From: Cupriavidus basilensis | GTDB lineage: Bacteria > Pseudomonadota > Gammaproteobacteria > Burkholderiales > Burkholderiaceae | DNA length: 64,000 nucleotides | NCBI RefSeq assembly: GCF_008801925.2 | Contig: NZ_CP062803.1 | Coordinates: 1,426,001 to 1,490,000 of the forward strand | Reading direction: 5' to 3' | Part shown: positions 41,797 through 56,641 of the stretch, in pieces | How the letters are laid out: each line of letters opens with the position of its first letter | Numbering within the stretch: position 1 is the first letter of the stretch | The notes under the pieces: model-generated | What the model was told of the DNA's origin: nothing | What the model saw: only the letters and a program-made list of their open reading frames with translations | Database searches by the model: none | Program-made: the position numbers and the translations under genes

Positions 41797-41890
41797 GGAG
41801 ACGTGGCCGAGAGGTCGAAGGCACTCCCCTGCTAAGGGAGCATCCGGGCCAAAACCTGGATCGAGGGTTCGAATCCCTCCGTCTCCGCCA
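41797..41890 (+). tRNA. tRNA-Ser(GCU)
   Basis: The 94-base class II tRNA has acceptor arms GGAGACG and CGTCTCC, discriminator G and an encoded CCA. The anticodon stem CTCCC/GGGAG closes a loop CTGCTAA with GCT at 41831-41833, reading AGC/AGU serine codons. A long variable arm and a T-arm GAGGGTTCGAATCCCTC are present. It is expressed from its own promoter and ends in a strong terminator. Serine tRNA 3' ends are common integration sites, and an integrase-like remnant lies 138 bases downstream. Confidence 0.97.
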
Positions 41891-42027: not shown

Positions 42028-42102
42028 ATGTACCTCACCCGCCGAGACGGCATCTACTACCTGTGCAAGCGCGCTGCCGTGCCGCTCAGTCAGGCTTCAT
42101 GA
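42028..42102 (+). pseudogene. Truncated start of a tyrosine-recombinase integrase
   Basis: An ATG with GGGAG at good spacing opens a 24-codon frame, MYLTRRDGIYYLCKRAA, then VPLSQAS and a stop. The pattern (basic, Y-L-x-R-R-x-G-x-Y-Y) resembles the N-terminal domain of DUF6538-type phage/ICE integrases. Homology ends where the frame runs into the antisense 3' end of FAD monooxygenase 1. With tRNA-Ser just upstream, this reads as the scar of an island whose integrase was deleted. The match is short, so moderate confidence. Confidence 0.55.
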
Positions 42103-43249
42103 CACCCATGATGCGCCGGCCGAGCGAGATACCCCACTGGGCCAGGCGCTTGTCCTCGGCCCACTGGCTTCGATCCCACGCCGCGAGTGCGTCGTCGATG
42201 CGCTCCCCGCCGGCCTGCAGCGCGCGCGCCAGGGCCACGGCATTGGCTGCCGCCTTGCCCGCGCCCGCGCCGGTATGCGGACGCGCCACGAAGGCGGCAT
42301 CGCCTAGCAGCACCGCGCGGCCAAAGCGCATGCGCGGCGCTGCGTAATCCTGGATCAGCTGCAGGAAGGGATCGCGGGTCGATGCGACCAGTGCCGCGAA
42401 CACGGGTGCGAGGCTGTCCGCCGCGGCAAGCCGCAGCGCCTGGGCATCGGCATCCTTGAGCGCGCCCGGGGGCAGCGAATGCGTGTGCTGGCGGCCATGG
42501 CGGTCCAGCAGCACGGCCGCCAGCGGTTCTCCCGCGGGCAGCGCGCGGTACCAGACCCAGTTCAGGCGCCGTTCGTTGCGCCGGGCCGATCCGTCCTCGC
42601 CGGGAATCAGGTAGGTCAGCATCTGATGTCCCGGCTCGTCCTGGAAGGCGAAAGCATCGACCAGCAGCGACCTGGCCTGCTCGCCCAGCGCTGCCTCGGG
42701 CAGCACGCCGCGCCAGGCGACATAGCCGGCATAGGCGGGTGCATCGCCGGGCAGTAGTTGCTGCCGCACGGTGGACAGTGGTCCGTCGGCGCCGACCAGC
42801 AGATCCGCGTGCTCGGTGCGGCCCGACGCGAAGCGGGCCGTCACATGATCGGCCTCGCGGTCCAGCGTGACCAGTTCCTCGCCCGCATGGATCATGCGCG
42901 GATCAAGTGCGCCTTTCATCAGCGCATAGAGTCCGTTCCAGGCGATTTGCGTCTGCGGCATGTCGATGCGGCGCACCACACCCTCGCGGTCCAGGAAGAT
43001 GCGGTCCTTTGACGGCACGCCGAACTCTGGCGGGTGCGCGACCCCGGCGAAGGCCAGCGCGTCGAGCACGCCGGGCTGCAGCACGAGCCCGCCGCCGCGG
43101 CTGTCGAGCTGCTGCGGCGAGCGCTCGAAGACATCGACATCCCAGCCGATGGCGCGCAGGCAGATTGCGGTAAAGAGCCCGCCGAGCGAGCCGCCGATCA
43201 CGATGGCGCGGTAAGGTCTGGACGTGGGCATGGTGGGCATGATGGTCAT
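42086..43249 (-). CDS. FAD-dependent monooxygenase 1 (dihydroxypyridine/hydroxynicotinate 3-monooxygenase-like)
   Basis: The ~387-residue flavoprotein has GGSLGGLFTAICLRAIGWDVDVFERS (FAD Rossmann), LLVGADGPLSTVR, YAGYVAWRG and LLGDAAFVARPHTGAG, the DG and GD motifs of group A hydroxylases. YAGYVxWRG and the loop around NWVWYRAL resemble 2,6-dihydroxypyridine 3-monooxygenase. Several ATG starts are close together (43,249, 43,240, 43,231). It follows the molybdenum hydroxylase genes on the same strand (gap of about 60 bases), so it is probably co-transcribed. Confidence 0.85.
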   Translation of the reverse strand: MTIMPTMPTSRPYRAIVIGGSLGGLFTAICLRAIGWDVDVFERSPQQLDSRGGGLVLQPGVLDALAFAGVAHPPEFGVPSKDRIFLDREGVVRRIDMPQTQIAWNGLYALMKGALDPRMIHAGEELVTLDREADHVTARFASGRTEHADLLVGADGPLSTVRQQLLPGDAPAYAGYVAWRGVLPEAALGEQARSLLVDAFAFQDEPGHQMLTYLIPGEDGSARRNERRLNWVWYRALPAGEPLAAVLLDRHGRQHTHSLPPGALKDADAQALRLAAADSLAPVFAALVASTRDPFLQLIQDYAAPRMRFGRAVLLGDAAFVARPHTGAGAGKAAANAVALARALQAGGERIDDALAAWDRSQWAEDKRLAQWGISLGRRIMGVMKPD

Positions 43250-43310
43250 GGGGTTGAGAGGTTCAGGGGGCGGGCGCCGGTCAGCGCCAGGGGGCATGGC
43301 ATGCTGCGCG

Positions 43311-45575
43311 CTACGGCGCGATTTCCCTGCGCAGCTGCTCGCCGCCCAGCGGCATGTCGCGCAGGCGCTTGCCGGTGGCATCGAACAGGGCGTTGCCGAT
43401 GGCGCCCGCGGTGGGCCCCATGGCGGCTTCGGCCACGCCGAGGAACGGCGTGCCGGGGCGGTCGATCAGGTGCACGTTGACGGTGGTCGGCACGGCGGAG
43501 AAGCGCATGATCGGATAGGCGCTCCAGTCGAAACTGCCGATGCCGCCGGTGTCAAAGCGCAGCTGCTCGTACAGCGTCCAGCTCGCAGCCTGCAGGACAC
43601 CGCCCTCGATCTGGTTGCGCACGCCATCCGGATTGACGATCTGCCCGCAATCGACGGCCACCTCCGCATGCTCCAGGCGCACCAGTCCCGTGTCGCGTAC
43701 CACGGAGATCTCCAGTGCGATCGCCATATAGCCCATCAGGTTCTTGTACCTGGCGAACGCGAAGCCGACGCCGTGGCCGGGCTTGCGGCCGCGCCGGGGC
43801 CAGCCGAACCTGGCGGCGGCAAGCTGGATCACGTCGCGCGCGCGCGGGTCTTCCAGATGCCGCAGCCGGAACGCCACGGGATCGGTGTTGGCCGCGGCGG
43901 CCAGTTCGTCCATGAAGCTCTCGATCGAGAAGACGTTCATGTGCGCGCCCAGCGAGCGCATCGCCGAGGTGCGCAGCGGCATGGTCGGCGAGAAGTGGTT
44001 GACGATGTGCGAGGCCGGGAGCTTGTAGAGCGGAATCGCATTGCGGTCGCCGCCGCCCTCGGGCTGCAGCATCGGGACCGAGGGCGCGGGGACGAAGGGC
44101 CTGGCCAGCTGGGTGGCGGGCAGTAGCCGGCCCGCGTTGACCACGCGCTCGTTATGCGAGCTGCTCCACAGCGCGTAGTCCCAGTCGACGATATGGCCAC
44201 CGGCGTCGAGCGAGGCCTTGACCTCGGTGACCATGGCCGGCGTGAAGTGGTCCCACAGGTTCTCCTGGTCACGCATCCATTGCACGCGCACCGGCTTTCC
44301 CGGCAGCGCGCGGGCCAGATAGGCGGCGTGCGCGGCGGCGTCGTCAGCGCCGTTGTGCCCGTAGCAGCCCGAGCCTTCCACGTGGATGCAGCGCAGCTTG
44401 TCCTTGGGCATCGACAGCATCTCGGCAAGGCCGTCGCGCAGCGGGTAGACGCCCTGGGAGTGGGTCCAGACGGTCAGCACGCCGTCCTGCATCTGCGCGA
44501 CGGCGCACGAGGGGCCGATCGATCCGTGCATCAGGTAGTGCTTGGTATAGCTGGCGGCCAGCGTCCTGGTGCCTGCCGGCACAGCGCCCCGCGTGTTGGC
44601 GATCTCGATGTGCTGCGTGCAAAGCGGCTTGAGCTGCGCTATCACGTCGGCGGGGCGGGGCAACGCACGCCCCTTGCTCCAGCGGCAGGCGGCGCCGAGC
44701 GCGCGCTGAGCCAGTACTGCCTGCCATTCCCCCGTGGCCACCACGGCGAGCAGGTTGCCGTCGCGCACGACGGCGATCACGCCGGGCATGGACTTGACCG
44801 CGGTCTCGTCGACCGACAGCAGGGCAGCGTCATAGGCAGGCGGCAACACCACGCGCGCATGCACCATGCCCGGCATGGCCAGGTCCTGGACATAGCTCGG
44901 CTTGCCGGTGACCTTGCCGGGAATGTCCAGCCGAGCCATCGGCGTGCCGATCACGTAGAACGATTTGGGGTCGCGCAGCGGCGAGGCGGGTGTTGCCGCG
45001 CGGTGCAGGTTCACAGCGGGCAGCAGTTCGCCGAACGACAGCGAGCGCCCGTCGGGGGCCGTGATGCGCGCATTGCCGACCGACAGCGACGCGGCATCGA
45101 CACGCAGCTGCCGCGCGGCGGCGTCGGTCAGCAGCCCGCGCACCTGGGCCGCCGCGTTGAGCAGGGCGCTGCCGCTGTCGGCCATGGTGTGGCTGCCGGC
45201 GGTCAGCCCTTCGTCCGGCGAACGGCCGGTATCGGCGCTCAGGAAGGTAATCAGCGCGGGCGCCATCTGCAGTTCTTCCGCTGCCACCTGCAGCAGCGCG
45301 GTGCGCACACCAGTGCCTAGCTCGACCTTGCCGGTGTACACCGTGACCTGGTTGTCGGGGGCGATCCTGATCCAGGCGTCGAGATAGGGATTGGTCTTCA
45401 GGCTGCCCGCCAATGCGCCGTACTGCCGCGCGACCTGCACGGCGGCACCCTCGTCGGCCAGCACCAGCTGCGCCATGGCCTTGCGGCCCGGCAGCAGCGT
45501 GAAGCCCACCACCAGCGAGCCCGAGACCAGGATGGCGCGGCGGCCCAGGTCGATGTGGTCGTCATGGCCGCTCAT
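43311..45575 (-). CDS. Tat-exported molybdopterin hydroxylase large subunit (xanthine-dehydrogenase family, IorB-like)
   Basis: The 754-residue protein is the Mo-cofactor subunit of a periplasmic oxidoreductase. A twin-arginine signal DLGRRAILVSGSLVVGF is at the N-terminus, and the body shows VYTGKVELGTGVRTALLQVAAEEL, SGCYGHNGADDAAAHAA and GVAEAAMGPTAGAIGNALFDA, the last near the catalytic glutamate. The closest remembered relatives are isoquinoline 1-oxidoreductase beta and similar aldehyde/nicotinate hydroxylases. GGAGGGGGCGCG precedes the ATG, which overlaps the stop of the [2Fe-2S] subunit gene. Confidence 0.88.
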   Translation of the reverse strand: MSGHDDHIDLGRRAILVSGSLVVGFTLLPGRKAMAQLVLADEGAAVQVARQYGALAGSLKTNPYLDAWIRIAPDNQVTVYTGKVELGTGVRTALLQVAAEELQMAPALITFLSADTGRSPDEGLTAGSHTMADSGSALLNAAAQVRGLLTDAAARQLRVDAASLSVGNARITAPDGRSLSFGELLPAVNLHRAATPASPLRDPKSFYVIGTPMARLDIPGKVTGKPSYVQDLAMPGMVHARVVLPPAYDAALLSVDETAVKSMPGVIAVVRDGNLLAVVATGEWQAVLAQRALGAACRWSKGRALPRPADVIAQLKPLCTQHIEIANTRGAVPAGTRTLAASYTKHYLMHGSIGPSCAVAQMQDGVLTVWTHSQGVYPLRDGLAEMLSMPKDKLRCIHVEGSGCYGHNGADDAAAHAAYLARALPGKPVRVQWMRDQENLWDHFTPAMVTEVKASLDAGGHIVDWDYALWSSSHNERVVNAGRLLPATQLARPFVPAPSVPMLQPEGGGDRNAIPLYKLPASHIVNHFSPTMPLRTSAMRSLGAHMNVFSIESFMDELAAAANTDPVAFRLRHLEDPRARDVIQLAAARFGWPRRGRKPGHGVGFAFARYKNLMGYMAIALEISVVRDTGLVRLEHAEVAVDCGQIVNPDGVRNQIEGGVLQAASWTLYEQLRFDTGGIGSFDWSAYPIMRFSAVPTTVNVHLIDRPGTPFLGVAEAAMGPTAGAIGNALFDATGKRLRDMPLGGEQLRREIAP

Positions 45576-46081
45576 CGCGCCCCCTCCTTGCCGCCCTCGG
45601 CCTTGACCATGCCCGGGCGCACGGCGCCGGGCATGCCGGCCACGGCGCGGATGGCCGCCAGGATGCGCATATGGGTGCCGCACCGGCACAGGTTGGGTTC
45701 CATGTGCGCGCGTAGCTCGGCCTCGGTGGGATGCGCGTTGACCTCCAGCAGGGCCTGCGCGCGCATGATCATGCCTGCGATGCAGTAGCCGCATTGCGCC
45801 GCCTGGTGGTCGATGAAGGCCTTCTGCAAGGGCCCCGGCCTGTCGGCGGTGCCCAGGCTCTCGATGGTGCGCACCGGCCGGGCACCGACCGATGCCACCG
45901 GCATCAGGCACGAAAACACCGCGCGGTCGCCGACGATGACGGTGCAGGCGCCGCACTGGCCCAGGCCGCAGCCGAACTTGGCGCCGTGCAGGTGCAGCTC
46001 GCCGCGCAGGGCATAGAGCAGCGGCGTGGACGGATCGATGTCCAGCGCGTGGCTGGCGCCGTTGACGGTGAGCTTGATCAT
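45572..46081 (-). CDS. [2Fe-2S] subunit of the molybdenum hydroxylase (IorA-like)
   Basis: The 169-residue protein binds two [2Fe-2S] clusters. The plant-type site has Cys38, Cys43, Cys46 and Cys58 (GCGLGQCGACT...FSC). The second has Cys97, Cys100, Cys132 and Cys134 (QCGYCIAG...NLCRCGT). It passes electrons from the Mo centre to a cytochrome. It has no export signal; such subunits travel with the Tat-targeted partner. It overlaps both neighbours by 4 bases (ATGA), giving tight coupling. Confidence 0.93.
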   Translation of the reverse strand: MIKLTVNGASHALDIDPSTPLLYALRGELHLHGAKFGCGLGQCGACTVIVGDRAVFSCLMPVASVGARPVRTIESLGTADRPGPLQKAFIDHQAAQCGYCIAGMIMRAQALLEVNAHPTEAELRAHMEPNLCRCGTHMRILAAIRAVAGMPGAVRPGMVKAEGGKEGAR

Positions 46082-47358
46082 CTCGATTCGTCCTCTTTCC
46101 TGAGTTTAGCGATGGTGTCCTGCACGCCGGTCCACGGCGGCTGCCGGGTGTAGGTGGCGCGCAGGTAGGCCGCCAGGTCGGCAAGCTGCTGGTCGTCGAA
46201 GGCTTGTGCGAACGCTGGCATGTAGTGCATCGCGTTCTCGCCGTTCCACGCCACGCCTTGCAGCATCATCTGGATGGTGTTGCGCGGCGTGCTCGCGTTG
46301 ACCGCGGAACTGGTGGCGAGGCTGGGGCGGCCACCCACGCTCTGCATTGGCGAACCGGTGCCATGGCAGGCGGCGCAAGCGCCGGTGAAGAGCGTCGCGC
46401 CGCGCGCGATGGCGGACTGGTCGGTCACGGCCGCCGAGACCGGCACCACGGCGGGCGCGGGTGCCGGCTTTTGCAGCGACATCAGATAGCTCGCAATGGC
46501 ATCGACGTCCGCCTCTGGCACGGTGGCCAGTTCGAGCGTGACCGGCAGCATCGGCCCGGCTGCCGCGCCATGCGCCGCGGAGATGCCGGTGCGCAGGTAT
46601 GTGCTTAGCTGCGCCCTGGTCCAGGGCACGGGCCCGCTCGCCAGGCGGTTCAGCGGCGGCGCTTCCCAGTTGTCCACCACGCCGCCGTCGAAGGCGCGGC
46701 CCGGCTTTTCCCCGCCGATGGCATTGAGCGGCGAGTGGCAGGCGGCGCAGTGGCCAAGTCCGTCCACCAGCAGGCGGCCGCGGTGCCAGGCCTCATCCTG
46801 CGCGGGATCGTGTTGCGCTTCGCCGGGTCGCAGGAACAGCACGTTCCAGAAGGCGACCAGGGGCCGGAAGTTGAGCGGGAAGATCAGCGCATTGGTAGGC
46901 GGCCTGGCCGTTACGGGCTCGCGCCGCATCAGGTAGGCATAGGCCGCCTCGATCTCGCGGTCCGACATCCTGGTGAAGTGGATGTACGGAAAGGCCGGAT
47001 AGAGCTGGTGGCCGTCGCGCGCGATGCCGCGCCGCATGGCACGCGTGAAGGCGTCCAGCGACCAGTTGCCGATGCCGGTTTGCACATCGGGCGTGATGTT
47101 GGTCGAGTAGATCGTGCCGAACGGCGTGACCAGCGGCAGGCCGCCAGCGAAGGGCTGGCCGCCCTTGGCCGTATGGCATACCGCGCAGTCGCCGAGCGCC
47201 ACCACGCGGGCGCCCTCCAGTGTCAGTGCGCGGTCGACGGAGGCAGGCGCGGGCGTGGCGACCGGCGCGATGGCTGGCTCCCACATGATGCCGGCGGCAG
47301 CTAGCAGGGCAACCGCCGCCGCCCCTGCCGCCGCGAGAAGGATGGGCCGGCGTTTCAT
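46078..47358 (-). CDS. Triheme c-type cytochrome, electron acceptor of the molybdenum hydroxylase
   Basis: The 426-residue protein has an N-terminal hydrophobic signal/anchor (about residues 5-24) and three heme-c sites CxxCH at about 58-62, 204-208 and 328-332. Architecture and gene order match the membrane cytochrome c subunit of three-component alcohol/aldehyde dehydrogenases and hydroxylases. It would carry electrons to the respiratory chain in the periplasm. It is the first gene of the unit, with 4-base overlap to the [2Fe-2S] gene. Confidence 0.92.
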   Translation of the reverse strand: MKRRPILLAAAGAAAVALLAAAGIMWEPAIAPVATPAPASVDRALTLEGARVVALGDCAVCHTAKGGQPFAGGLPLVTPFGTIYSTNITPDVQTGIGNWSLDAFTRAMRRGIARDGHQLYPAFPYIHFTRMSDREIEAAYAYLMRREPVTARPPTNALIFPLNFRPLVAFWNVLFLRPGEAQHDPAQDEAWHRGRLLVDGLGHCAACHSPLNAIGGEKPGRAFDGGVVDNWEAPPLNRLASGPVPWTRAQLSTYLRTGISAAHGAAAGPMLPVTLELATVPEADVDAIASYLMSLQKPAPAPAVVPVSAAVTDQSAIARGATLFTGACAACHGTGSPMQSVGGRPSLATSSAVNASTPRNTIQMMLQGVAWNGENAMHYMPAFAQAFDDQQLADLAAYLRATYTRQPPWTGVQDTIAKLRKEDESR

Positions 47359-47605
47359 GCCTGGCCTGCCGAGAGTCGATGCCGGTTCATTGCGGGAATC
47401 CTTGTATCGATAGAGGCCCGCGGCGCGCATTGCTTGCATCGGGACCTTTGGCAGCGGCGGGAAGGCGCGGCTCAACTTGCATGGTAGGAGCCGTGTCGAC
47501 CGGCAACAATCAGACGAGTGGTCTGTGGCGCCCAAACCAAAGTATGAGAGGGCGGGCGGTGCTCGACCCGGCCGAGCACGCCGATCGCCTGCCGGCTACC
47601 CGCAT

Positions 47606-48718
47606 TCACGCCGCGACCGGATAATCGGTGTAGCCTCCGGCACCGCCGCCGAAGAATGACGTGGCATCTGGCGCGTTCAAGGGCAGGCCGCCACGCAGCC
47701 GGGCGGGCAGATCGGGATTGGCGATGAATGGGCGGCCGAAGGCGATGATGTCGGCGCGGCCGCTGGCGAGGGCGTGTTCGGCGCTGTCGCGGCCGTAGCC
47801 GCCCGCCAGCATCAGCACGCCGCGGAAGGCCGCGCGCAGTTGCTGGATGATCGCGTCCCAGCGGGGATCGGCGTGCTCTTCCTTGACGGTGCCGACCATG
47901 GCCGGCTCAACCAGGTGCAGGTAGGCCAGGCCCCGGGTGTCGAGCTGGCGCACGATGTAGCCGAAGGTCTCTTCAGGCGATGCGTCTCCCATGCCCATGA
48001 AGCGCCCCATGGGCGTCAGCCGCACGGCAACGCGCGCGGGCCCAACCTCCGCCGCGATCGCGTCCACCACCTCCAGCAGCAGCCGTGCCCGGTTCTCGAT
48101 GCTGCCGCCATAGGCGTCGTCGCGTTGGTTGCTGTTGGAGTTGATGAACTGGTCAAGCAGGTAGCCGTTGCCGGCGTGGATCTCCACGCCATCCATGCCC
48201 GCGGCCATGGCGTTGCGGGCGGCGTGCCGGTAGTCGGACACGATGTCGTGGATGCCGGCCACGGTCAGCGCCTGTGGCACAGGCACGTCGCCCCAGGCGC
48301 CGTTGCCCTGCGCGTCGATAATGAAGGTCTTGCCGGGGACGGGCAGGGCGCTGGGCGCCACCGGCAGCGCGCCGCCGGGCTGGAACACCGGGTGCGAGAC
48401 GCGGCCGACGTGCCACAGTTGCATGAAGATGATGCCGCCTTGCCCATGCACGGCGTCGCTGACCGCCTGCCATCCCTGGATCTGTGCCTCGCTATGGATG
48501 CCCGGTGTCCAGGCGTAGCCCTGCCCCTGTTGCGAGATCTGCGTGGCTTCGGTGACGATCAGCGCCGCGCCGGCACGCTGCCGGTAGTACTCGACATTCA
48601 GGTCGGTGGGCACGTTGCCGGGCTGGCCGGCGCGCGAGCGCGTCAGCGGCGCCATGGCAACGCGATGCGGCAAGGTATGGCTGCCGAGGCGAACGGGGGT
48701 GAAGAGATGGTGGGTCAC
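47606..48718 (-). CDS. Old Yellow Enzyme-family NADH:flavin oxidoreductase
   Basis: The 370-residue FMN TIM-barrel protein reduces activated C=C bonds or nitro groups. It has MAPLTRSRAGQPGN, ATQISQQGQGYAWTPGIHS, MQLWHVGRVSHP, EIHAGNGYLLDQFI (catalytic His-Ala-Gly-Asn motif) and the FMN phosphate site near ADIIAFGRPFIANPDLP. The start is GTG with ACGGAG upstream. LysR is encoded immediately upstream on the same strand. Confidence 0.93.
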   Translation of the reverse strand: MTHHLFTPVRLGSHTLPHRVAMAPLTRSRAGQPGNVPTDLNVEYYRQRAGAALIVTEATQISQQGQGYAWTPGIHSEAQIQGWQAVSDAVHGQGGIIFMQLWHVGRVSHPVFQPGGALPVAPSALPVPGKTFIIDAQGNGAWGDVPVPQALTVAGIHDIVSDYRHAARNAMAAGMDGVEIHAGNGYLLDQFINSNSNQRDDAYGGSIENRARLLLEVVDAIAAEVGPARVAVRLTPMGRFMGMGDASPEETFGYIVRQLDTRGLAYLHLVEPAMVGTVKEEHADPRWDAIIQQLRAAFRGVLMLAGGYGRDSAEHALASGRADIIAFGRPFIANPDLPARLRGGLPLNAPDATSFFGGGAGGYTDYPVAA

Positions 48719-48808
48719 GGTGGTTCTCCGTCAGGTGCGATGGGTCGGTCGGCGGCAGCAGGCTTGCCTTCGCGCCGCGCTGGTTGTCTCGGAAAGAGAT
48801 GACCTCAA

Positions 48809-48859
48809 GGTTAGGTGCTAACCCGTCGCCGGAGAATCGGGCCACCGCGCAACGTTGCG
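48809..48859. promoter_or_regulatory. Inverted repeats upstream of the Old Yellow Enzyme gene
   Basis: GGTTAG-GTG-CTAACC (48809-48823) and the 12-bp palindrome CGCAACGTTGCG (48848-48859) lie 91 and 130 bases ahead of the Old Yellow Enzyme start, in the gap after lysR. Such pairs are usual for promoter-bound regulators; the neighbouring LysR or a redox-sensing factor are candidates. Confidence 0.45.
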
Positions 48860-48912
48860 TTGCGCTGGCGGCAAGGGGGAGGGGGAGGGAGAGCGGGAAA
48901 GCGGTAGGGGCG

Positions 48913-49836
48913 TCAGGCGCCCGCTTCGTTCCGGCCGGTCGGCCCGGGAATCCGCGAGAGAAAGCCGAGGAAGGCGGCGATGCGCCGCGAGCCGCGCTGG
49001 TTGGGCAGGTAGAGCGCGGTGATGGCCGAGCTGGCGCGGTTGGGGTTGACGGTCCAGTCGTCCAGGAGCGCGGTCAGGCGCCCGCTCTGGATATCGTCGT
49101 CGACCAGCCAGTCGGGCAGCAGGGCGATGCCGGCGTCGGCCAGCGCCAGCTCGCGCAGCACTTCGGCGTTGTTGCTCTTGAAGGTGCCCGGAACGGGCAC
49201 CTGGACTTCCTCTGTGCCGCGCAGCAAGGTCCACATCTGCGTGCCCGCGCCGTACGTGAAGCGCAGGCACGCATGCCCGGCCAGTTCCGCCGGCGCGGTG
49301 GGGATGCCGCGCTGCTGCAGATAGCCAGGACTTGCCACCACCCTGCGCCGGAACGTGCCGATCTGACGCGCCACCACTTCATCGAGCGACGCGGCGCTGC
49401 CCAGGCGGATCGATAGATCGATGCGTTCGCCGAGCAGGTCGACAATCTCGTCGGTCAGCGTGACCTCCAGTTCCAGCTTCGGATACTGCGCGATCAGGCT
49501 GCCGAGGAAGGGCGCGATGCAGCGGCGCCCGAACGCCACCGGCAGCGACACGCGAAGCTGGCCCACCGGCGTATCGCCACGGTCGGCGATCAGCGCATCG
49601 GCTTCCGCCACCGCGTCGAGGATCTTGCGTGCCCGCTGGTAATAGGCCGCGCCGGCCTCGGACACCGTTACCTGCCGTGTCGACCGGTTCAGCAGCACGG
49701 TGCCCAGCTCCTCCTCCAGGCCGTCCATCATGCGGGTCACCGATGACGTGGCCAGGTTGACCCGCCGCGCGGCGGAGGAGAACCCCTTGGCGTCGACGGT
49801 CTCGACGAACAGCTTCAAAGCCAGCAGCTTGTCCAT
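48913..49836 (-). CDS. LysR-family transcription regulator
   Basis: The 307-residue protein has the LysR winged helix near residues 5-65 (LFVETVDAKGFSSAARRVNLATSSVTRMMDGLEEELGTVLLNRSTR) broken here over typical positions, and a type-2 periplasmic-binding-like effector domain beyond residue 90. SVTRMMDGLEEELG and RQVTVSEAG are standard. It probably controls the adjacent Old Yellow Enzyme gene, with which it shares a strand and orientation, in response to a small aromatic or electrophile. Confidence 0.92.
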   Translation of the reverse strand: MDKLLALKLFVETVDAKGFSSAARRVNLATSSVTRMMDGLEEELGTVLLNRSTRQVTVSEAGAAYYQRARKILDAVAEADALIADRGDTPVGQLRVSLPVAFGRRCIAPFLGSLIAQYPKLELEVTLTDEIVDLLGERIDLSIRLGSAASLDEVVARQIGTFRRRVVASPGYLQQRGIPTAPAELAGHACLRFTYGAGTQMWTLLRGTEEVQVPVPGTFKSNNAEVLRELALADAGIALLPDWLVDDDIQSGRLTALLDDWTVNPNRASSAITALYLPNQRGSRRIAAFLGFLSRIPGPTGRNEAGA

Positions 49837-49881
49837 AGGTAAGACTCCAGCGGTAAGAGTGTCGTCTATCCCTGCAGGGGC

Positions 49882-50565
49882 TCAGTTGCCGGGCTTGTCG
49901 GGGGCACGCAGGGAACGCATGACGGCAGGCGCGCCGTGGAGAAACATGTCTACCTTGCGGCGGATCACGGCATCGATGTCCGAGGGCACCTTGAGGCCAT
50001 AGACCCATTTGCGCACGCCGAGATAGAAGATGGCCGCGTGCAGGCCCCAGATCATCTCGACCTCGGCTTCCAGCTCGGCCGCATTGCGCGGCTCCGGGAT
50101 GCCGTACGCGGCGCGCACCTCGGCCAGCACGGGCAGGAAGACCTTGCTGCGCAGCTTGTTGAGGTACTTGTTGTTGATGCCTTCGCGCGTGAGGCCGGCA
50201 AAGATGAAGACCCGGATCCATTCCTCGCGCAGGATCACGGACGCATAGTCGAGGTAGAACGCATACAGCCGTTCGGTCAGCGGCGTGGCGCGATCGGCGA
50301 TCTGGCGTTCCCAGTCGGGCCGCCATTGAAACACTTCGCTGTAGACCCGGTCGATCAGCGCCTCCTTGCTGGAGAAGTAGCGGTACAGCAAGGGCTGGGT
50401 GACGCCAATCTGCTTGGCGAGATCGCGCGTGCTGCCGGAGAATCCGTTGCGCGTGAAGTGCTCGATGGCCTTCTGCACGATCTGCTGCTCCCGCTCTTCG
50501 GGGAGCAGCCGTTTTGCGGTCTTGGCCGGGGCAGGGGTTTCCAGCGGCGTTGCGTCTCGTTTCAT
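49882..50565 (-). CDS. TetR-family transcription regulator
   Basis: The 227-residue protein has the TetR helix-turn-helix in residues ~25-70 (IVQKAIEHFTRNGFSGSTRDL, GVTQPLLYRYFSSKEALIDRVY), followed by an all-helical ligand domain. AGGTGAACGA precedes the ATG. It is the last gene after the ActP-type symporter but has its own 120-base upstream gap. That gap contains a 17-bp box also found upstream of the VOC/monooxygenase operon, implying autoregulation and control of that operon. Confidence 0.92.
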   Translation of the reverse strand: MKRDATPLETPAPAKTAKRLLPEEREQQIVQKAIEHFTRNGFSGSTRDLAKQIGVTQPLLYRYFSSKEALIDRVYSEVFQWRPDWERQIADRATPLTERLYAFYLDYASVILREEWIRVFIFAGLTREGINNKYLNKLRSKVFLPVLAEVRAAYGIPEPRNAAELEAEVEMIWGLHAAIFYLGVRKWVYGLKVPSDIDAVIRRKVDMFLHGAPAVMRSLRAPDKPGN

Positions 50566-50618
50566 TCGTTCACCTGTGACAGGCACGTCCCGTGCGGAGC
50601 GTTTGCGGCATTGTACCA

Positions 50619-50635
50619 ATCGGGTGATAAATTGT
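50619..50635. promoter_or_regulatory. Shared box upstream of tetR
   Basis: ATCGGGTGATAAATTGT occurs 53 bases upstream of tetR, in the gap after actP. It differs in one base of 17 from a box at 54485-54501 upstream of the VOC/monooxygenase operon. It is probably a TetR-family operator. Confidence 0.65.
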
Positions 50636-50685
50636 GACGCACGGCCGGGCTGCCGGCGTGGGGCCGGCAGCACAGGACACGGGAC

Positions 50686-52326
50686 CTACTGCGGCTTGAC
50701 CAGCCCCAGCTCGCAATCGACCAGCTGATTGTTGAAGGCGCCGCGTTCGCGCGCACCGCGCGCGGACCGGTCGGTGACCGAGAACACGTAAATGCCGGCA
50801 AAGGCCACCAGCATGGAGAACAGCGCCGGGTACTCGTAGGGGTAGATGGCGCTCGCATGGCCAAGCACCTGCACCCACACGGTCGGGCTCAGCACCGTCA
50901 GCACCACCGCGCTCAGCAAGCCAAGAGAGCCGCCCACCACAGCACCCCGCGTGGTCAGTCCGCGCCAGTAGATCGACAGCAGCAGCACCGGGAAATTCGA
51001 GCTGGCGGCGATCGAAAAGGTCAGGCTGACGATAAAGGCAATGGTCTGCTTCTCGAACAGGATGCCCAGCAGGATGGACAGTACGCCCAGCACCAGCGTG
51101 GTCATCCGGGAGACGCGCATCTCCTCCTTGTCGGTGGCGTTGCCCTGGCGCAGGACCTTGGCATAGAGGTCGTGCGAGATGGCGGAGGAACCTGCCAGCG
51201 TCAGCCCCGCCACCACGGCCAGGATGGTCGAGAACGCCACCGCGCAGATGAAGCCGAGGAAGAGGTTGCCGCCGACGGCATGGGCCAGGTGCACGGCCAC
51301 CATGTTGACGCCGCCGATCACCGCGCCGGCAGGCGTGTGGTAGGCCGGATCGCTGGCGACCAGCGCGATGGTGCCGAAGCCGATGATGATGATCAGCGCG
51401 TAGCCGATGCCGACGATGCCGGTGGCATACAGGATGCTCTTGCGTGCCGCCTTGACGTCGCCGACGGTGAAGAAGCGCATCAGGATATGCGGCAGGCCCG
51501 CGGTGCCGAAGATCAGCGCCAGGCCGAGCGATACCGCGGAGACGGGATCGGAGACCAGGCCGCCCGGGCGCATGATGGCCGCATGCTTGCCGTGGGCCTC
51601 GATGGCCTGCGCGAACAGCGCATTCATGCTGAAGCCGAAGCGGCTCATCACCATGAACGCCATGAAGGCGGCGCCCGCCAGCAGCAGCACTGCCTTGATG
51701 ATCTGGATCCAGGTGGTGGCCAGCATGCCGCCGAAGAACACATAGACCACCATCAGCACGCCGACCAGCACCACCGCCGCCGTGTAGCTGAAGCCGAACA
51801 GCAGCTCCACCAGCTTGCCGGCCCCCACCATCTGCGACACCAGGTACAGCAGCACGATGACGATGGAGCTGGACGCGGAGAACGCGCGGATGGGGCGCTG
51901 CTGCAGGCGGTATGAGACCACGTCCGCCAGCGTGAAGCGGCCCAGGTTGCGCAGTGGCTCGGCGATCAGGAACAGGATGATCGGCCAGCTGGCGAGAAAG
52001 CCGATGGAGTAGATCAGGCCATCGTAGCCGCTGGTGAAGACCAGCGCGGAGATGCCCAGCAGCGAGGCCGCCGACATGTAGTCGCCGGCAATGGCCCAGC
52101 CGTTCTGCAGGGCAGTGATCTTGCCGCCGGCTGCATAGTGGTCGGCCACGCTGTGGTTGCTCCTGGCCGCCCAGCGCGTGACCACGAGCGTGGCGGCCAC
52201 GAACATCAGGAACATGGCGATGGCGATGACGTTCATGCCCTGGCCCACCGAGCTCGACGCCGCAAAGGCTGGCAAGGCGGTGAGCAACAGGGCCGCGCCG
52301 ATGGCGCGGAGGTTGGCTTGCTTCAT
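50686..52326 (-). CDS. Cation/carboxylate symporter, ActP type (SSS family)
   Basis: The 546-residue protein has a signal-like first segment, then about 13 membrane spans of the sodium/solute symporter fold, with [20 protein letters not shown], the core [14 protein letters not shown] region and [13 protein letters not shown]. Relatives transport acetate, glycolate or similar monocarboxylates. Overlapping start/stop (ATGA) with the upstream DUF485 gene is the usual yjcH-actP pairing. In this cluster the cargo may be the aromatic acid or its cleavage product (inference). Confidence 0.93.
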
Positions 52327-52685
52327 TTTGTTGCCCCTTGCTTGATTTCGCTGATCCGCTGGTCGTACACGGTGTTGGTGCGATGCACGTACACCGCCAC
52401 CAGCAGGAAGGTCAGCGCGAACATGCCGAAGCCCACGGGAATGCCCACGCTCATGGGCTGGCCCAGGGTCAGCTGGCGGCCCAGCAGCGCGGGCCGGAAG
52501 GCGAGCGTGAGGATGTAGCCGAAGTACACCGCCAGCATGATGGCGGTCAGCGCCCACGCGAACCTGCGGCGCGCGCGCACCAGGGACTGGAATGCAGGAT
52601 CGGCGAGCAGGGGATTCGGTGGGGGCGCAGCGAGCGCGGCGCTTTCGCGGGCGGCTGCGGCAAAGGTGGGGGCGGTGTGTTCCAA
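52323..52685 (-). CDS. DUF485 small membrane protein (YjcH-like)
   Basis: The 120-residue protein has two transmembrane segments (about residues 43-63 and 82-103) between charged loops, typical of DUF485, and is the usual small partner encoded directly before ActP. The start is TTG, chosen because GGAGACAACC precedes it and no ATG is available. It may be an accessory subunit of the symporter. It overlaps actP by 4 bases. Confidence 0.9.
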
Positions 52686-52737
52686 GGTTGTCTCCGTTGG
52701 GGGGGGCGGTTGGTCTGGCGGGAGTGCGGCGGCGCGC

Positions 52738-53961
52738 TCAGAAGCGCGTCGATACCGCCGTCTCGCGCATCACGGCTTCCGGCGTGCGATAGCGCTCGGC
52801 CATCTGGCGGTCGGTCTCGTTCTTGAGCTGCGCCTGCATATAGGCGCCGAGGTGGCGCGCGTGCTGGACGATGGCCGCGCCCACCTGCACGCGCTCGGCG
52901 CTGTAGGTCTCCAGTGCGGCACTGACACTGTCATGCGCTTGCAGAGCCTTGACCAGCGAGATGGCGTCGCCCGCGGCCTTGGTCACACCCATGCCGCAGT
53001 GCGGGCGCGCCACGAAGGCGGCGTCGCCGAGCAGCGCCACGCGGTCGAAGGCCATGCGCGGCACCTCAAGGTCGAAGATGGGCTGGAACAGTGGCTGCGC
53101 GGCCTTGGTCACGACCTCGCCGAACTGGGGCGCCAGGTTGGCCAGCGCGGCTTCCTCCATGCTGGCAAGCACGTCCGGGCGGATCAGTCCCGGCGGGATG
53201 CCGCCGGACCAGCGCTTGCCGCTGGCATCGGTCAGCAGGTCGGGCAGGTCCACGTCTTCGCTGGTGGCGCGATACCACACGAAGTTGTAGCGGCGCTCGC
53301 CAACCCGGGTGCTGTTGCCCTGGCCCGCCACCGGGTAGCCGAGGATCTGTTCGCGCGGGGGCAGGCAGAAGGCGAACTTCTCGAACAGCATGTCGCGCGT
53401 GGCTTCGCTCAGGCTCGTTTCGTCCACCAGGCCGCGCCAGGCGATGTACCCAGCGTACTGGAGCCGGGCCTCGGGCAACAGGCACTCGCGCAACGCGGAA
53501 CGGAAGCCGTCCGCGGCGATGACGAGATCGGCGTGATGGATCGAGCCGTCGTCCAGCATCACCACGGCGCGGCCGGGCTCGCTGCGCACCGATACCACAT
53601 TGGCGCCCGTGCGGTACGTGCCCCCGGTAAAGGCGGAGCGCAGCACGTGGTACATCTTGCCCCATGCCGTCAGCGTTTGCGGCAGCTCACGTTGCGACAG
53701 CACGCTGCCGTCCTGGCCCAGCGTCAGCCGGGACTTCACCTGCACGCCGATGGAGTCGTCCACCTCGACCCCGGCGGCGGCCAGAGCCTCGAACAATTCC
53801 GGATGCGTGACGATGCCCGCGCCGCGCCCGGCGAGGGCTTCGGGAACGCGCTCGCATACCTCCACTTCCCACCCGGCGCGGGCGAGCAGGTTGGCCGCGA
53901 ACAACCCGCCCAGCGAGCCGCCCACGATGATGGCCTTCGGCCGAGTCGATAGGGTTGTCAT
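52738..53961 (-). CDS. FAD-dependent monooxygenase 2 (dihydroxypyridine monooxygenase-like)
   Basis: The 407-residue group A flavoprotein hydroxylase has KAIIVGGSLGGLFAANLLARAGWEVEV at the N-terminus, LVIAADGFRSALRE (DG motif), YAGYIAWRGLVDE, YNFVWYRA and ALLGDAAFVARPHCG. Residues around the middle, GYPVAG and YAGYxxWRG, match 2,6-dihydroxypyridine 3-monooxygenase. It is the most diverged of the three paralogues in this region. AGGAGACTGATC precedes the ATG. It is co-oriented with the VOC gene, two bases downstream of its stop. Confidence 0.86.
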   Translation of the reverse strand: MTTLSTRPKAIIVGGSLGGLFAANLLARAGWEVEVCERVPEALAGRGAGIVTHPELFEALAAAGVEVDDSIGVQVKSRLTLGQDGSVLSQRELPQTLTAWGKMYHVLRSAFTGGTYRTGANVVSVRSEPGRAVVMLDDGSIHHADLVIAADGFRSALRECLLPEARLQYAGYIAWRGLVDETSLSEATRDMLFEKFAFCLPPREQILGYPVAGQGNSTRVGERRYNFVWYRATSEDVDLPDLLTDASGKRWSGGIPPGLIRPDVLASMEEAALANLAPQFGEVVTKAAQPLFQPIFDLEVPRMAFDRVALLGDAAFVARPHCGMGVTKAAGDAISLVKALQAHDSVSAALETYSAERVQVGAAIVQHARHLGAYMQAQLKNETDRQMAERYRTPEAVMRETAVSTRF

Positions 53962-53963
53962 GA

Positions 53964-54452
53964 TCAGTCTCCTGCCACTTCGGGGTGAGGCGCGCGCGCG
54001 CCGTTGCCCGGGATTTCAAGGCCCGCCACCTCGGCAGCGGGGTAGTTCAGTTCGATGGTGACGCCGGAAGGGTCCTCGATGAACACCTGGTGCAGGCCCA
54101 GGCTGGGGACGGTGCGGTCGCGCCACGGGATGCCTTCGGCTTCCAGCTTCGCCCACATCTGCGCCACGCCGGTGGCCAGGAACGCAATGTGGTCGAGGGT
54201 GCCAGTGCCCGCCGCCGAGGGGGCGCGCTCGCCGAGGTAGGCGGACAGCCCGCCGGGGTTGCCGGGGTCGGCGCCGATGATGTGGACTGTGCCGAAGTCA
54301 CCTTCGTCCCCGCCCATGTACAGCCAGGCGCCGGGGAAATCGAAGGGCGGGCGATAGCCTCGCCTGAATCCGAGGATGCGTTCGTAGAAGGCGCAGGATT
54401 GCTCGAGGTCCGTGGTGCGGATCGAGAAGTGCGCGAGCTTGCGGATGGTCAT
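53964..54452 (-). CDS. VOC-superfamily (glyoxalase/bleomycin-resistance fold) protein
   Basis: The 162-residue protein has two beta-alpha-beta-beta-beta modules with HFSIRTTDLEQSCAFYERILGF and LDHIAFLATGVAQMWAKLEAEG; His8, His88 (LDHI) and Glu in VTIELNYP are likely metal ligands. Members include glyoxalase I, ring-cleavage dioxygenases and isomerases. In this operon (with monooxygenase 2) a ring-cleavage or tautomerase role is plausible but unproven. AGAGGCAACC precedes the ATG. Confidence 0.87.
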   Translation of the reverse strand: MTIRKLAHFSIRTTDLEQSCAFYERILGFRRGYRPPFDFPGAWLYMGGDEGDFGTVHIIGADPGNPGGLSAYLGERAPSAAGTGTLDHIAFLATGVAQMWAKLEAEGIPWRDRTVPSLGLHQVFIEDPSGVTIELNYPAAEVAGLEIPGNGARAPHPEVAGD

Positions 54453-54484
54453 GGTTGCCTCTGCTATTGATCGGTCGATTAGTG

Positions 54485-54501
54485 ATCGTGTGATAAATTG
54501 T
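54485..54501. promoter_or_regulatory. Shared box upstream of the VOC/monooxygenase operon
   Basis: ATCGTGTGATAAATTGT lies 32 bases upstream of the VOC start and matches 16 of 17 bases of the box before tetR (50619-50635). The position fits a repressor binding site near the transcription start. CGAT and ATCG half-elements flank it (around 54477-54488). Confidence 0.65.
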
Positions 54502-54605
54502 AGGTCGGCTGCGTGGAACGGCCAAGAGCAAAAAAGGGGAGTACTTACCCTGATCGGCGGAGTGTATGCCGGCTGCGCCACTTCTTCGCGGCGCAGCCCT
54601 GTGCC

Positions 54606-55763
54606 TTAGTGCAGTGCGATCCCCATGATGCGGTTGCCCATGCGGATGCCCCACTGGGTCATCTGCTCGCCTTGTGCGTGTTCGCCCTGTTGCCAGCGCT
54701 GCAGCGCCCGGTCCGGGTCGGCCGCGCCGTCAAGCGCCTTGGCCAGCGCCACGGCATTGGCCGCGGCCTTGGCGGTGCTGCCGGCGGTATGGGGGCGGGG
54801 AATGAAGGCGGCATCGCCGGTCAGCAGCACGCGGCCGAACACCATGCGTGGCACCTGCAAGTCCTGGATGGCCTGGACAAAGATCTGATCGGTGTTGTCG
54901 ATCAGCGCGCGGAACGCGGGGTTGGCGCGCGCGGCCGCGGTCTGGCGAAACCAACGCTCTTGCTCGGCCGACAGCATGCCTGGAGGGATCGAATGGCCGC
55001 GGCGTTTTCCGTCGCGATCGGTGAGCACGGCATCGAGCGCAGCGCCGGGCTCGGCCTTCAGGTACCAGAGCCAGTTGAAGCGGCGCCGTCCGGGCGCCGT
55101 GGCGCCGTCGGCACCGGGCACCATGTACTGCAGCATCATCGAGTCGCGGTCTTGCTGGAACACGAAGTTCTCATGCAGCAGCGGCCTGGCCGATTCGGGC
55201 AGAAGGCCCTCGTCGACGAGGCCACGCCAGACGACATAGCCGGCATAGGTGGGGGCGACGCCGGGCAGCACGATCCCGCGCACGGTAGAGCCGGCGCCGT
55301 CGGCACCGACCAGCAGCTCGCCGCACGCCTGGCGTCCATCGGCAAACGTGGCGCAAACGCCGTGCTCGTGCTGCGCGATAGCGGTGAGCGCGGCACCGCG
55401 ATGATAGTGCGCCGCCGGGAAATGATCGAGCAGGGTGGAATACAGCGTGTTCCACGAGGTCTGTGTCTGCGGCATGCGCTGGCGGTAGAGCACGTGGCCG
55501 CCTTGGTCCAGGAACAGCCGGTCGTGCGAGCGCACACCCAGCGCGCCGTGCGCGGCGATGCCGGCGAACGAGAACGCCCGCAGCACCTCTGGCTGCAGGA
55601 CAATGCCGCCGCCACGGCTGTCGAGGTCCGATGCCGAACGCTCGAACACGTCGACCTGCCAGCCCACGGCACGCAGCGCGGTGGCCGTAAACAGGCCGCC
55701 CAGCGAGCCGCCTATGACCAGGGCCCTGCGCGGGCCGACGGAGGATGCGTCGTTGGTGTTCAT
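54606..55763 (-). CDS. FAD-dependent monooxygenase 3 (dihydroxypyridine/hydroxynicotinate 3-monooxygenase-like)
   Basis: The 385-residue flavoprotein closely resembles monooxygenase 1: GGSLGGLFTATALRAVGWQVDVFERS, DLDSRGGGIVLQPEVLRAF, YAGYVVWRGLVDE, NWLWYLKAEP and LLTGDAAFIPRPHTAGS, ending QWGIRMGNRIMGIALH. TGGAGCCACAC precedes the ATG. It is a single transcription unit, with a 35-bp inverted repeat 123 bases upstream. The region between the 3' end and the VOC gene is short (153 bases). Confidence 0.85.
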   Translation of the reverse strand: MNTNDASSVGPRRALVIGGSLGGLFTATALRAVGWQVDVFERSASDLDSRGGGIVLQPEVLRAFSFAGIAAHGALGVRSHDRLFLDQGGHVLYRQRMPQTQTSWNTLYSTLLDHFPAAHYHRGAALTAIAQHEHGVCATFADGRQACGELLVGADGAGSTVRGIVLPGVAPTYAGYVVWRGLVDEGLLPESARPLLHENFVFQQDRDSMMLQYMVPGADGATAPGRRRFNWLWYLKAEPGAALDAVLTDRDGKRRGHSIPPGMLSAEQERWFRQTAAARANPAFRALIDNTDQIFVQAIQDLQVPRMVFGRVLLTGDAAFIPRPHTAGSTAKAAANAVALAKALDGAADPDRALQRWQQGEHAQGEQMTQWGIRMGNRIMGIALH

Positions 55764-55990: not shown

Positions 55991-56641
55991 ATGAAACCCA
56001 TCGACACCCAGATTACCTATGACTTCATTTGCCCGTGGTGCTGGATCGGCCATCGCAACCTGAAGGCCGCCATCGGGCGCATGTCGACCGAGGCCGCCCC
56101 CGCGATTTCCTATGTGCCCTACGAACTCAACCCGGACATGCCGGTGGAAGGCGCCGACCGCAAGGCCTACCGCACGGCGAAATTCGGCAGTTGGGCTCGT
56201 TCGCAGGCCATGGACGCAGAGGTGGCGATGATGGGCCGACGCGCCGGGCTGGATTTCAACTATGACCTGATCACGGTCACGCCCAATACCCGGCTTGCGC
56301 ACCGGCTGATGGCATTCGCCCAACAGACCGGCGACGCAGCCATGGCGGAGGCGTTGTTCGATGCCATCTTCGCGGCGTACTTCTCCCGCGGCGAGCATAT
56401 CGGCCTGATCGATGTACTCGTGCCGCTGGCCGTATCGGCCGGCTTCGATGCGCAAGCCGTGCGCGATCACTTGTCTGGCACCGACGGCGAAGCGCAGATC
56501 GTGGCGGCGCAGGCTAAGGCGTTGCGCGAGGGGGTCCGGTCCGTGCCCACGATCCGGATCGGCAATGCCGTCATCGCTGGCGCGCAGCCACCTTCGATCA
56601 TGGAGAAGGCGTTGCAGGCGGGAGTGGCCGAGGCCATTTGA
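55991..56641 (+). CDS. FrnE/DsbA-family thiol oxidoreductase-like protein
   Basis: The 216-residue protein has a thioredoxin fold with a helical insert. The active-site ICPWCWIG gives a CPWC pair (about residues 14-17), and a cis-proline segment is seen in SVPTIRIG. It lacks a signal peptide, as in cytoplasmic FrnE-type members, so it is not a periplasmic DsbA. Close relatives occur in polyketide or aromatic degradation clusters as dithiol isomerases. AAGGAG precedes the ATG. Confidence 0.87.
   Translation: MKPIDTQITYDFICPWCWIGHRNLKAAIGRMSTEAAPAISYVPYELNPDMPVEGADRKAYRTAKFGSWARSQAMDAEVAMMGRRAGLDFNYDLITVTPNTRLAHRLMAFAQQTGDAAMAEALFDAIFAAYFSRGEHIGLIDVLVPLAVSAGFDAQAVRDHLSGTDGEAQIVAAQAKALREGVRSVPTIRIGNAVIAGAQPPSIMEKALQAGVAEAI

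Follow-up and report, generated by a model that had tools for sequence, protein, structure and literature searches.

The 64,000 nucleotides of Cupriavidus basilensis DNA which we analysed (positions 1426001–1490000 of contig C1 in a host genome of 8.94 Mb and 8 contigs; in the following, the window) contain a gene cluster that brings together three FAD-dependent monooxygenases of the DHPH type (FMO1, FMO2, and FMO3), a three-subunit molybdenum (Mo) hydroxylase (CytC–FeS–MoL), an old yellow enzyme, a small protein of the VOC fold, an ActP-type symporter, and two regulators. We consider it probable that the cluster serves the catabolism of an N-heteroaromatic compound, which itself is probably a carboxylate; that the substrate is N-heteroaromatic is our best guess and is unproven. 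With clearly more reserve we put forward that FMO2 together with the VOC protein, or with an AzcA-like cupin in other lineages, might form an undescribed ring-opening unit for hydroxylated N-heteroaromatics in which two unrelated metal folds interchange, and that in the window this unit might be coupled to a NicAB-like Mo-hydroxylase, DHPH-type hydroxylases, and the old yellow enzyme as a new degradation pathway. In the openly licensed literature we found no paper on the cluster, on AzcA, or on isonicotinate genes, and apparently this is an undescribed conserved catabolic cluster assembled from known kinds of enzymes.

The initial annotation had listed three paralogous monooxygenases of the dihydroxypyridine type. 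In fact all three genes are intact open reading frames at the positions given there, on the minus strand, and the bit scores of their products far exceed the cut-off of 333 bits of the DHPH family NF005566/PRK07236 (Table 1) and fall far below the cut-off of the salicylate-hydroxylase profile. The best solved match of each is DHPH (2VOU) with 31–35% identity along 345–370 aligned residues. The motifs GGSLGGLF, YAGYxxWRG, and GDAAFxxRPH are present in FMO1, FMO2, and FMO3 as had been noted, and FMO1 and FMO3 are indeed each other's nearest relatives: by BLAST they are 49–51% identical, FMO2 shares 37–41% with either of them, and near their C-terminal ends FMO1 and FMO3 carry QWGI...GRRIMG or GNRIMG.

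In a tree of 82 rows FMO1–3 and DHPH fall into one clade of 77 rows (100/100) which leaves out NicC and four other monooxygenases of the host genome, including a fragment (L108) of its own NicC. The NicC row had been joined from two alignment pieces, and the fragment groups with it. This answers the phylogenetic question posed by the initial annotation: the three flavoproteins belong with DHPH and not with NicC, and the profile score disfavours salicylate hydroxylase. Within the large clade FMO1 and FMO3 share a clade of 20 rows (100/98), FMO2 is part of a separate clade of 28 rows (100/97), and DHPH is found in a clade of 13 rows (96/80); the remaining 11 rows are mostly actinobacterial. As FMO1 and FMO3 each have a sub-clade of their own (6 rows, 100/100, and 3 rows, 100/100), between which genes from further genera branch off, they are old paralogues. 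His211 of NicC has been described as a substrate-binding residue (PMC9304392, seen in part). At the aligned position, with the columns read by eye, the nicotine-plasmid DHPH (L104) and the host NicC have His, FMO1 and FMO2 have Gln, and FMO3 has Met; an aligned Tyr of NicC is kept in FMO1–3.

The host is rich in this family. Six members above the cut-off are encoded in its genome, three in the window and three on contig C3 (425 kb). In a set of 60 genomes of the genus that includes the host no higher number occurs, and 33 of the 60 have at least one. One of the genes on C3 belongs to a second TetR–ActP–DUF485–FMO2–VOC set, and two have another old yellow enzyme and a DsbA-like gene in their vicinity. 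The FMO2 on C3 is identical to that of the 427 kb plasmid pMTS2 of Cupriavidus sp. P-10. FMO1 of the window is 91% identical to a protein of C. basilensis OR16 and the VOC protein 98% to a Cupriavidus protein. Beyond the genus the family is large: with FMO2, 7500 out of 8000 candidates that were scored came within E 1e-40, which points to thousands of sequences. The loci of FMO relatives from public genomes are the best 80 of 93 found with FMO1 patterns, so that members of the FMO2 type are under-sampled.

The genes for CytC, FeS, and MoL form one operon-like row and resemble the subunits of the nicotinate enzyme of the same host. FeS is similar to NicA (Table 1), CytC is 50% identical over 404 amino acids to the cytochrome part of the host NicB open reading frame, and MoL is 35% identical over 730 amino acids to the Mo subunit of the host nic cluster. 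Each of the 32 MoL rows, which stand for 31 distinct proteins, has the stretch G[SA]GCYG[HQ]NGADD; it resembles GCYGRNCADD of the host nic subunit. At the Mo-subunit motif MoL has GSGCYGHNGADD, where the aldehyde dehydrogenase AldH of 8GY3 has GGGFGRR. The N-terminus of MoL, GRRAILVSGSLVVGF, looks twin-arginine-like when judged by eye. The comparisons with the nic subunits support the assignment of CytC–FeS–MoL as a putative NicAB-like Mo-hydroxylase. A tree of MoL is not reliable in its deep part owing to the long branches of 8GY3 and the host NicB and was left out of this verdict. A MoL relative of 54% identity is encoded on a plasmid of Sinorhizobium meliloti (L103) together with cytochrome c, FeS, hydantoinase/oxoprolinase-type, and acetone carboxylase gamma-type genes.

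The proposal of a ring-opening unit is based on the neighbourhood of FMO2. In 30 of the 60 genomes of the genus we find a VOC orthologue (E 1e-30; 32 copies), and 31 of these copies lie at most 400 bp from a monooxygenase above the cut-off; the last one is 570 bp from a partial gene of 265.7 bits. In the 28-row FMO2 clade, counted by hand from locus rows mapped by BLAST, a VOC gene is found within 50 bp in 14 cases and a cupin gene within 2.1 kb in 9 cases, five have neither, and none has both. This cupin is small and unrelated to the VOC protein. Its nearest solved fold is AzcA (9U8N/9U8O), whose function as a triazine-forming cupin is taken from the PDB title alone. The pairs of the FMO2 clade are distributed over Proteobacteria and one metagenome-assembled genome (MAG) of Bacteroidota, and the same cupin accompanies monooxygenases of the DHPH side in Actinomycetota. 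The exchange of both proteins beside FMO2 suggests that one step is carried out by two folds. The families are not confined to this pair, since relatives of the VOC protein in Vibrio (37%) and P. terrae (59%) and of the cupin in Phaeobacter and Leisingera have no such monooxygenase annotated in flanks of 8–9 kb. In Rhizobium, Agrobacterium, and Rhodococcus the cluster has a second, different VOC protein, and the Rhizobium and Rhodococcus forms contain PF13468.

Residues H8, H57, H88, and E134 of the VOC protein are invariant in all 15 rows, and judging from this pattern H8, H88, and E134 could form a 2-His-1-Glu metal site. No solved structure matched the protein by sequence at E 0.01. Fold searches returned many tied matches (FosA, glyoxalases, resistance and binding proteins, and one row titled homogentisate 1,2-dioxygenase) and therefore do not choose a reaction. 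With its 162 amino acids the protein is shorter than the chain of a two-domain extradiol dioxygenase, which has about 290.

The modules of the cluster recur across Burkholderiales and rhizobia, as seen from loci of public genomes and plasmids that were mapped by BLAST. CytC–FeS–MoL is found at one locus with a gene of the FMO1 or FMO3 type in Cupriavidus, Burkholderia, Paraburkholderia, Caballeronia, and Massilia, and with other monooxygenases of the family in Rhizobium, Bradyrhizobium, and Azospirillum; 19 of the 31 loci having CytC–FeS–MoL and a monooxygenase also contain a relative of the old yellow enzyme. The row VOC–FMO2–DUF485–ActP recurs on plasmids of Cupriavidus, Burkholderia, and Paraburkholderia, with an amidohydrolase gene next to it in three plasmids of the latter two genera and not in Cupriavidus P-10. 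In one Paraburkholderia and one Burkholderia (L086, 13363–14502; L089, 13346–14479) the amidohydrolase that follows ActP starts with RRRLLG, which resembles an export signal; the Rhizobium form is devoid of such a start. In addition, aldehyde dehydrogenase and amidohydrolase genes as well as genes for branched-chain-type ABC uptake systems are present at the loci of relatives. Within the genus, 17 genomes encode MoL relatives of at least 64% identity and 15 of these also have the VOC protein (Fisher p 3.7e-4, a statistic that ignores the kinship of the genomes). In nine of the 17 a monooxygenase above the cut-off lies 31–92 bp from MoL and in two more within 0.8 kb. That the modules are conserved in several genera speaks for a genuine catabolic unit. 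On the Pantoea plasmid pPAT9B02 (L088) an FMO2 relative is found with an isochorismatase-type hydrolase, two small cupins, ABC uptake genes, and two alpha subunits of ring-hydroxylating oxygenases.

On the minus strand the gene order is FMO3, VOC, FMO2, DUF485, ActP, TetR, LysR, old yellow enzyme, CytC, FeS, MoL, FMO1 (Table 1). Only 2 bp separate VOC and FMO2, MoL and FMO1 are 61 bp apart, and DUF485/ActP, CytC/FeS, and FeS/MoL overlap by 4 bp each. The Mo-hydroxylase, VOC protein, symporter, and two regulators which the initial annotation had placed beside the monooxygenases are all present; it was silent on the strand of the monooxygenases, the old yellow enzyme, DUF485, and the divergent DsbA-like gene. 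Between lysC and the cluster a tRNA-Ser(gct) gene (41797–41890 of the window, plus strand) may be an insertion site.

Table 1. Features of the cluster and related loci of the host genome (positions within the window unless a contig, C2 or C3, is given; numbers with L denote mapped loci)
Feature	Position	Strand	Remarks
FMO1, DHPH-type (PRK07236) FAD monooxygenase, 387 aa	42086..43249	-	NF005566 500.1 bits; best solved match 2VOU 7.1e-49
MoL, molybdopterin-binding subunit, 754 aa	43311..45575	-	Pfam MoCoBD_1/2; best solved match 8GY3 large subunit 1.3e-50
FeS, (2Fe-2S) subunit, 169 aa	45572..46081	-	55% to host NicA over 144 aa
CytC, cytochrome c subunit, 426 aa	46078..47358	-	Pfam PF00034 x3 (Cytochrom_C); 8GY3 cytochrome subunit (8GY3_A) 5.3e-107
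Old yellow enzyme (alkene reductase, NemA-like)	47606..48718	-	NF007899 416.1 bits, cut-off 403
LysR-family regulator	48913..49836	-	Pfam HTH_1 + LysR_substrate
TetR-family regulator	49882..50565	-	Pfam TetR_N; relatives close to FMO2 at several loci
ActP-type Na+/solute symporter	50686..52326	-	NF006903 850.8 bits, cut-off 750
DUF485 membrane protein, ActP partner, TTG start	52323..52685	-	Equivalent neighbour annotated DUF485 in L084, L086, L089, L092
FMO2, DHPH-type FAD monooxygenase, VOC/cupin-linked clade, 407 aa	52738..53961	-	NF005566 517.7 bits; 28-row clade 100/97
VOC-fold protein, 162 aa	53964..54452	-	H8, H57, H88, E134 candidate metal ligands
FMO3, DHPH-type FAD monooxygenase, 385 aa	54606..55763	-	NF005566 518.0 bits; 2VOU 2.4e-55
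DsbA/FrnE-like protein, CPWC motif, divergent from FMO3	55991..56641	+	PF01323 1e-29; equal divergent pair at L002
L001	C3:145000-164900		Contig C3 of 425 kb
L002	C3:213000-232900		Contig C3 of 425 kb
L111, nicotinate cluster (NicC, NicA, NicB, NicE, NicD, NicX, NicF)	C2:192000-211900		Full NicC gene included

Gene families, their order, their conservation, and the exchange of VOC protein and cupin are what we observe; from these we infer the substrate class, the order of the steps, and every reaction of the following scheme. Periplasmic CytC–FeS–MoL would put a hydroxyl group next to the ring nitrogen and pass the electrons via its cytochrome to respiration, and the resulting anion would be taken up by DUF485–ActP. 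FMO1 and FMO3, being of the DHPH type, could add further hydroxyls, and the old yellow enzyme could reduce the electron-rich ring or an unsaturated product. Finally FMO2 would hydroxylate once more and the adjoining, presumably metal-dependent VOC protein would open or rearrange the product, a task which the small cupin might fulfil in other lineages. TetR and LysR would act as regulators. A neighbourhood that links three DHPH-family monooxygenases with a Mo-hydroxylase, an old yellow enzyme, and a VOC protein amounts to a short list of genes and substrates, and assigning a function to the VOC protein or to the cupin would point to that of the other.

Several observations weigh against this scheme. 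Scans with family and Pfam profiles recognised no lower-pathway enzyme in the cluster, queries with aldehyde dehydrogenase and amidohydrolase gave zero matches in the window at E 1e-3, and orthologues of the cupin and the amidohydrolase were not found in the host genome. Among solved structures DHPH is the sole full-length relative of this monooxygenase family that turned up. Since 8GY3, an aldehyde dehydrogenase, is the best solved match of both MoL and CytC, the substrate may also be an aldehyde. The loci L001–L097 were mostly fetched by means of the monooxygenase, whose presence there is thus by design; in six of the 17 MoL genomes the contig with MoL carries no monooxygenase above the cut-off, and none is found in the 9 kb flanks of the S. 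meliloti relative of MoL. MoL and FMO2–VOC are also separable, as 15 of the 30 VOC genomes do not have MoL and two of the 17 MoL genomes do not have VOC. Finally, some relatives have neighbours of another kind. On two Methylobacterium plasmids (L090 and L105) the row comprises an NCS1 permease, a hydantoin racemase family protein, UraH, UraH, UraD, an FMO2 relative, the cupin, and xanthine-dehydrogenase-type Mo genes, and the contig of a Hyphomicrobiaceae MAG (L057) with cupin and FMO2 relative encodes an allantoate amidohydrolase-type protein, a PuuE-like protein below the cut-off, and a luciferase-like oxidoreductase. A 50% relative of FMO3 on a Gloeocapsa plasmid (L095) has DsbA and TrxR-like genes next to it, flavodoxin and glutaredoxin lie at most 8 kb away, and no catabolic gene was seen in its surroundings.

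The last observations lead to different explanations. The Methylobacterium rows would fit a chemistry like that of purines or ureides, with urate, methylxanthine, or some other nucleobase as substrate, which would be a special case of the N-heteroaromatic reading. Here the Mo enzyme would oxidise the ring, FMO2 would serve as a ring hydroxylase like HpxO or TmuM, and the VOC protein or cupin would rearrange an unstable product. We regard this as quite improbable, as UraH/UraD occur at L090 alone among the 97 mapped loci and two further Methylobacterium loci (L051 and L053) have neither nearby; FMO2 scores 112.9 with the HpxO profile (cut-off 500), the window contains no relative of UraH, UraD, or NCS1 at E 1e-3, the cluster has ActP, and an orthologue of the cupin was not found in the host. 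The Gloeocapsa genes, on the other hand, would agree with a role in detoxification or redox stress, where TetR, old yellow enzyme, VOC, and DsbA-like protein respond to quinones and electrophiles and the monooxygenases inactivate antibiotics. The old yellow enzyme is above the cut-off of the NemA type, the DsbA-like gene is divergent to FMO3, and binding and resistance proteins are among the many results of the VOC fold search. Nevertheless, the symporter, the three-gene cytochrome-linked Mo-hydroxylase, and the aldehyde dehydrogenase, amidohydrolase, and ABC uptake genes of the relatives point to catabolism, and we rate detoxification as the least probable of the explanations considered here.

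The match to 8GY3 could also indicate a homocyclic, flavonoid-like route: the Mo enzyme would be an aldehyde dehydrogenase of the AldFGH kind, FMO2 would hydroxylate a phenol beside its hydroxyl group, and the VOC protein, whose putative ligands H8, H88, and E134 suit a 2-His-1-Glu metal site, would be an extradiol dioxygenase. A monooxygenase with a glyoxalase-type protein has in fact been published as a hydroxylation/dioxygenation pair in Variovorax (PMC11069340, seen in part). Against this, GGGFGRR of AldH is absent from MoL, which rather resembles the subunit of the nic cluster, and the monooxygenases group with DHPH. In addition, the VOC protein has only about half the length of a two-domain extradiol enzyme. 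A homocyclic substrate therefore appears unlikely to us, and we prefer an N-heteroaromatic one.

Among N-heteroaromatics, nicotinate was rejected as main substrate because the host nic cluster lies elsewhere, on contig C2 at 192–212 kb. NicC (5EOW, 1e-163), NicX (7CN3, 8e-124), and NicE (4FQ7, 1.6e-114) were named there via solved structures, and we identified NicA, NicB, NicD, and NicF from their sequences and their place at the locus; the NCBIfam names of these proteins indicate weak relatives only. The same locus has a second Mo large subunit gene (16169–18496 of L111) with a MarR-like gene behind it. As the host possesses this separate cluster, the cluster of the window is not the nic pathway and not needed for nicotinate. 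In line with the initial annotation, which had seen no complete nic pathway here, queries with the host NicX, NicD, NicE, and NicF gave no hit in the window at E 1e-3. Its pairing of Mo-hydroxylase and monooxygenase after the model of nicotinate and hydroxypyridine catabolism is supported, with a Mo-hydroxylase that is NicAB-like and monooxygenases that are of the DHPH type and not of the NicC type. Its interpretation, an N-heteroaromatic or related aromatic route, is partly supported. A role of FMO1–3 as picolinate PicB is unlikely, since PicB appears to be multi-component from its gene names (picB1B2B3B4; PMC10142695, seen in part).

Parts of the cluster have counterparts in several known systems. 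The fungal hxn nicotinate pathway (HxnS, HxnX, HxnV, HxnT) likewise unites a Mo-hydroxylase, FAD monooxygenases, and an old yellow enzyme, and HxnT of Aspergillus, the old yellow enzyme, was assigned to 2,3,6-trihydroxypyridine, the product of DHPH; HxnV, however, is placed with phenol 2-monooxygenases, and the part of this source at hand describes neither a VOC protein nor a cytochrome-linked Mo enzyme (PMC9304392). In the flavonoid pairs IfcA/IfcB and FdeE/FdeC, which hydroxylate and cleave the A-ring, a monooxygenase gene also stands with a glyoxalase-type gene, a likeness drawn from their description (PMC11069340; PMC11303751; both seen in part), whereas the cluster of the window additionally has the Mo-hydroxylase and the old yellow enzyme. 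The parallels to HxnT and to the Variovorax pair are analogies and not tests. AzcA, the nearest fold for the cupin of other lineages, differs in fold from the VOC protein of the window. The aldehyde dehydrogenase 8GY3 is membrane-bound and has the same three-subunit layout of FeS, Mo, and cytochrome c subunits with a related cytochrome, but a different Mo-subunit motif. With the nic cluster (NicAB, NicC, NicX, NicD, NicE, NicF) the window shares similar Mo-hydroxylase subunits, whereas a NicC-type monooxygenase has no counterpart. With the DHPH route of the nicotine plasmid it has in common the monooxygenase family and a Mo-hydroxylase nearby. In contrast to that route no kdh, C–C hydrolase, or nboR was seen in the cluster, the His of DHPH proper is replaced in FMO1–3, and three paralogues, ActP, VOC, and an old yellow enzyme are found instead.

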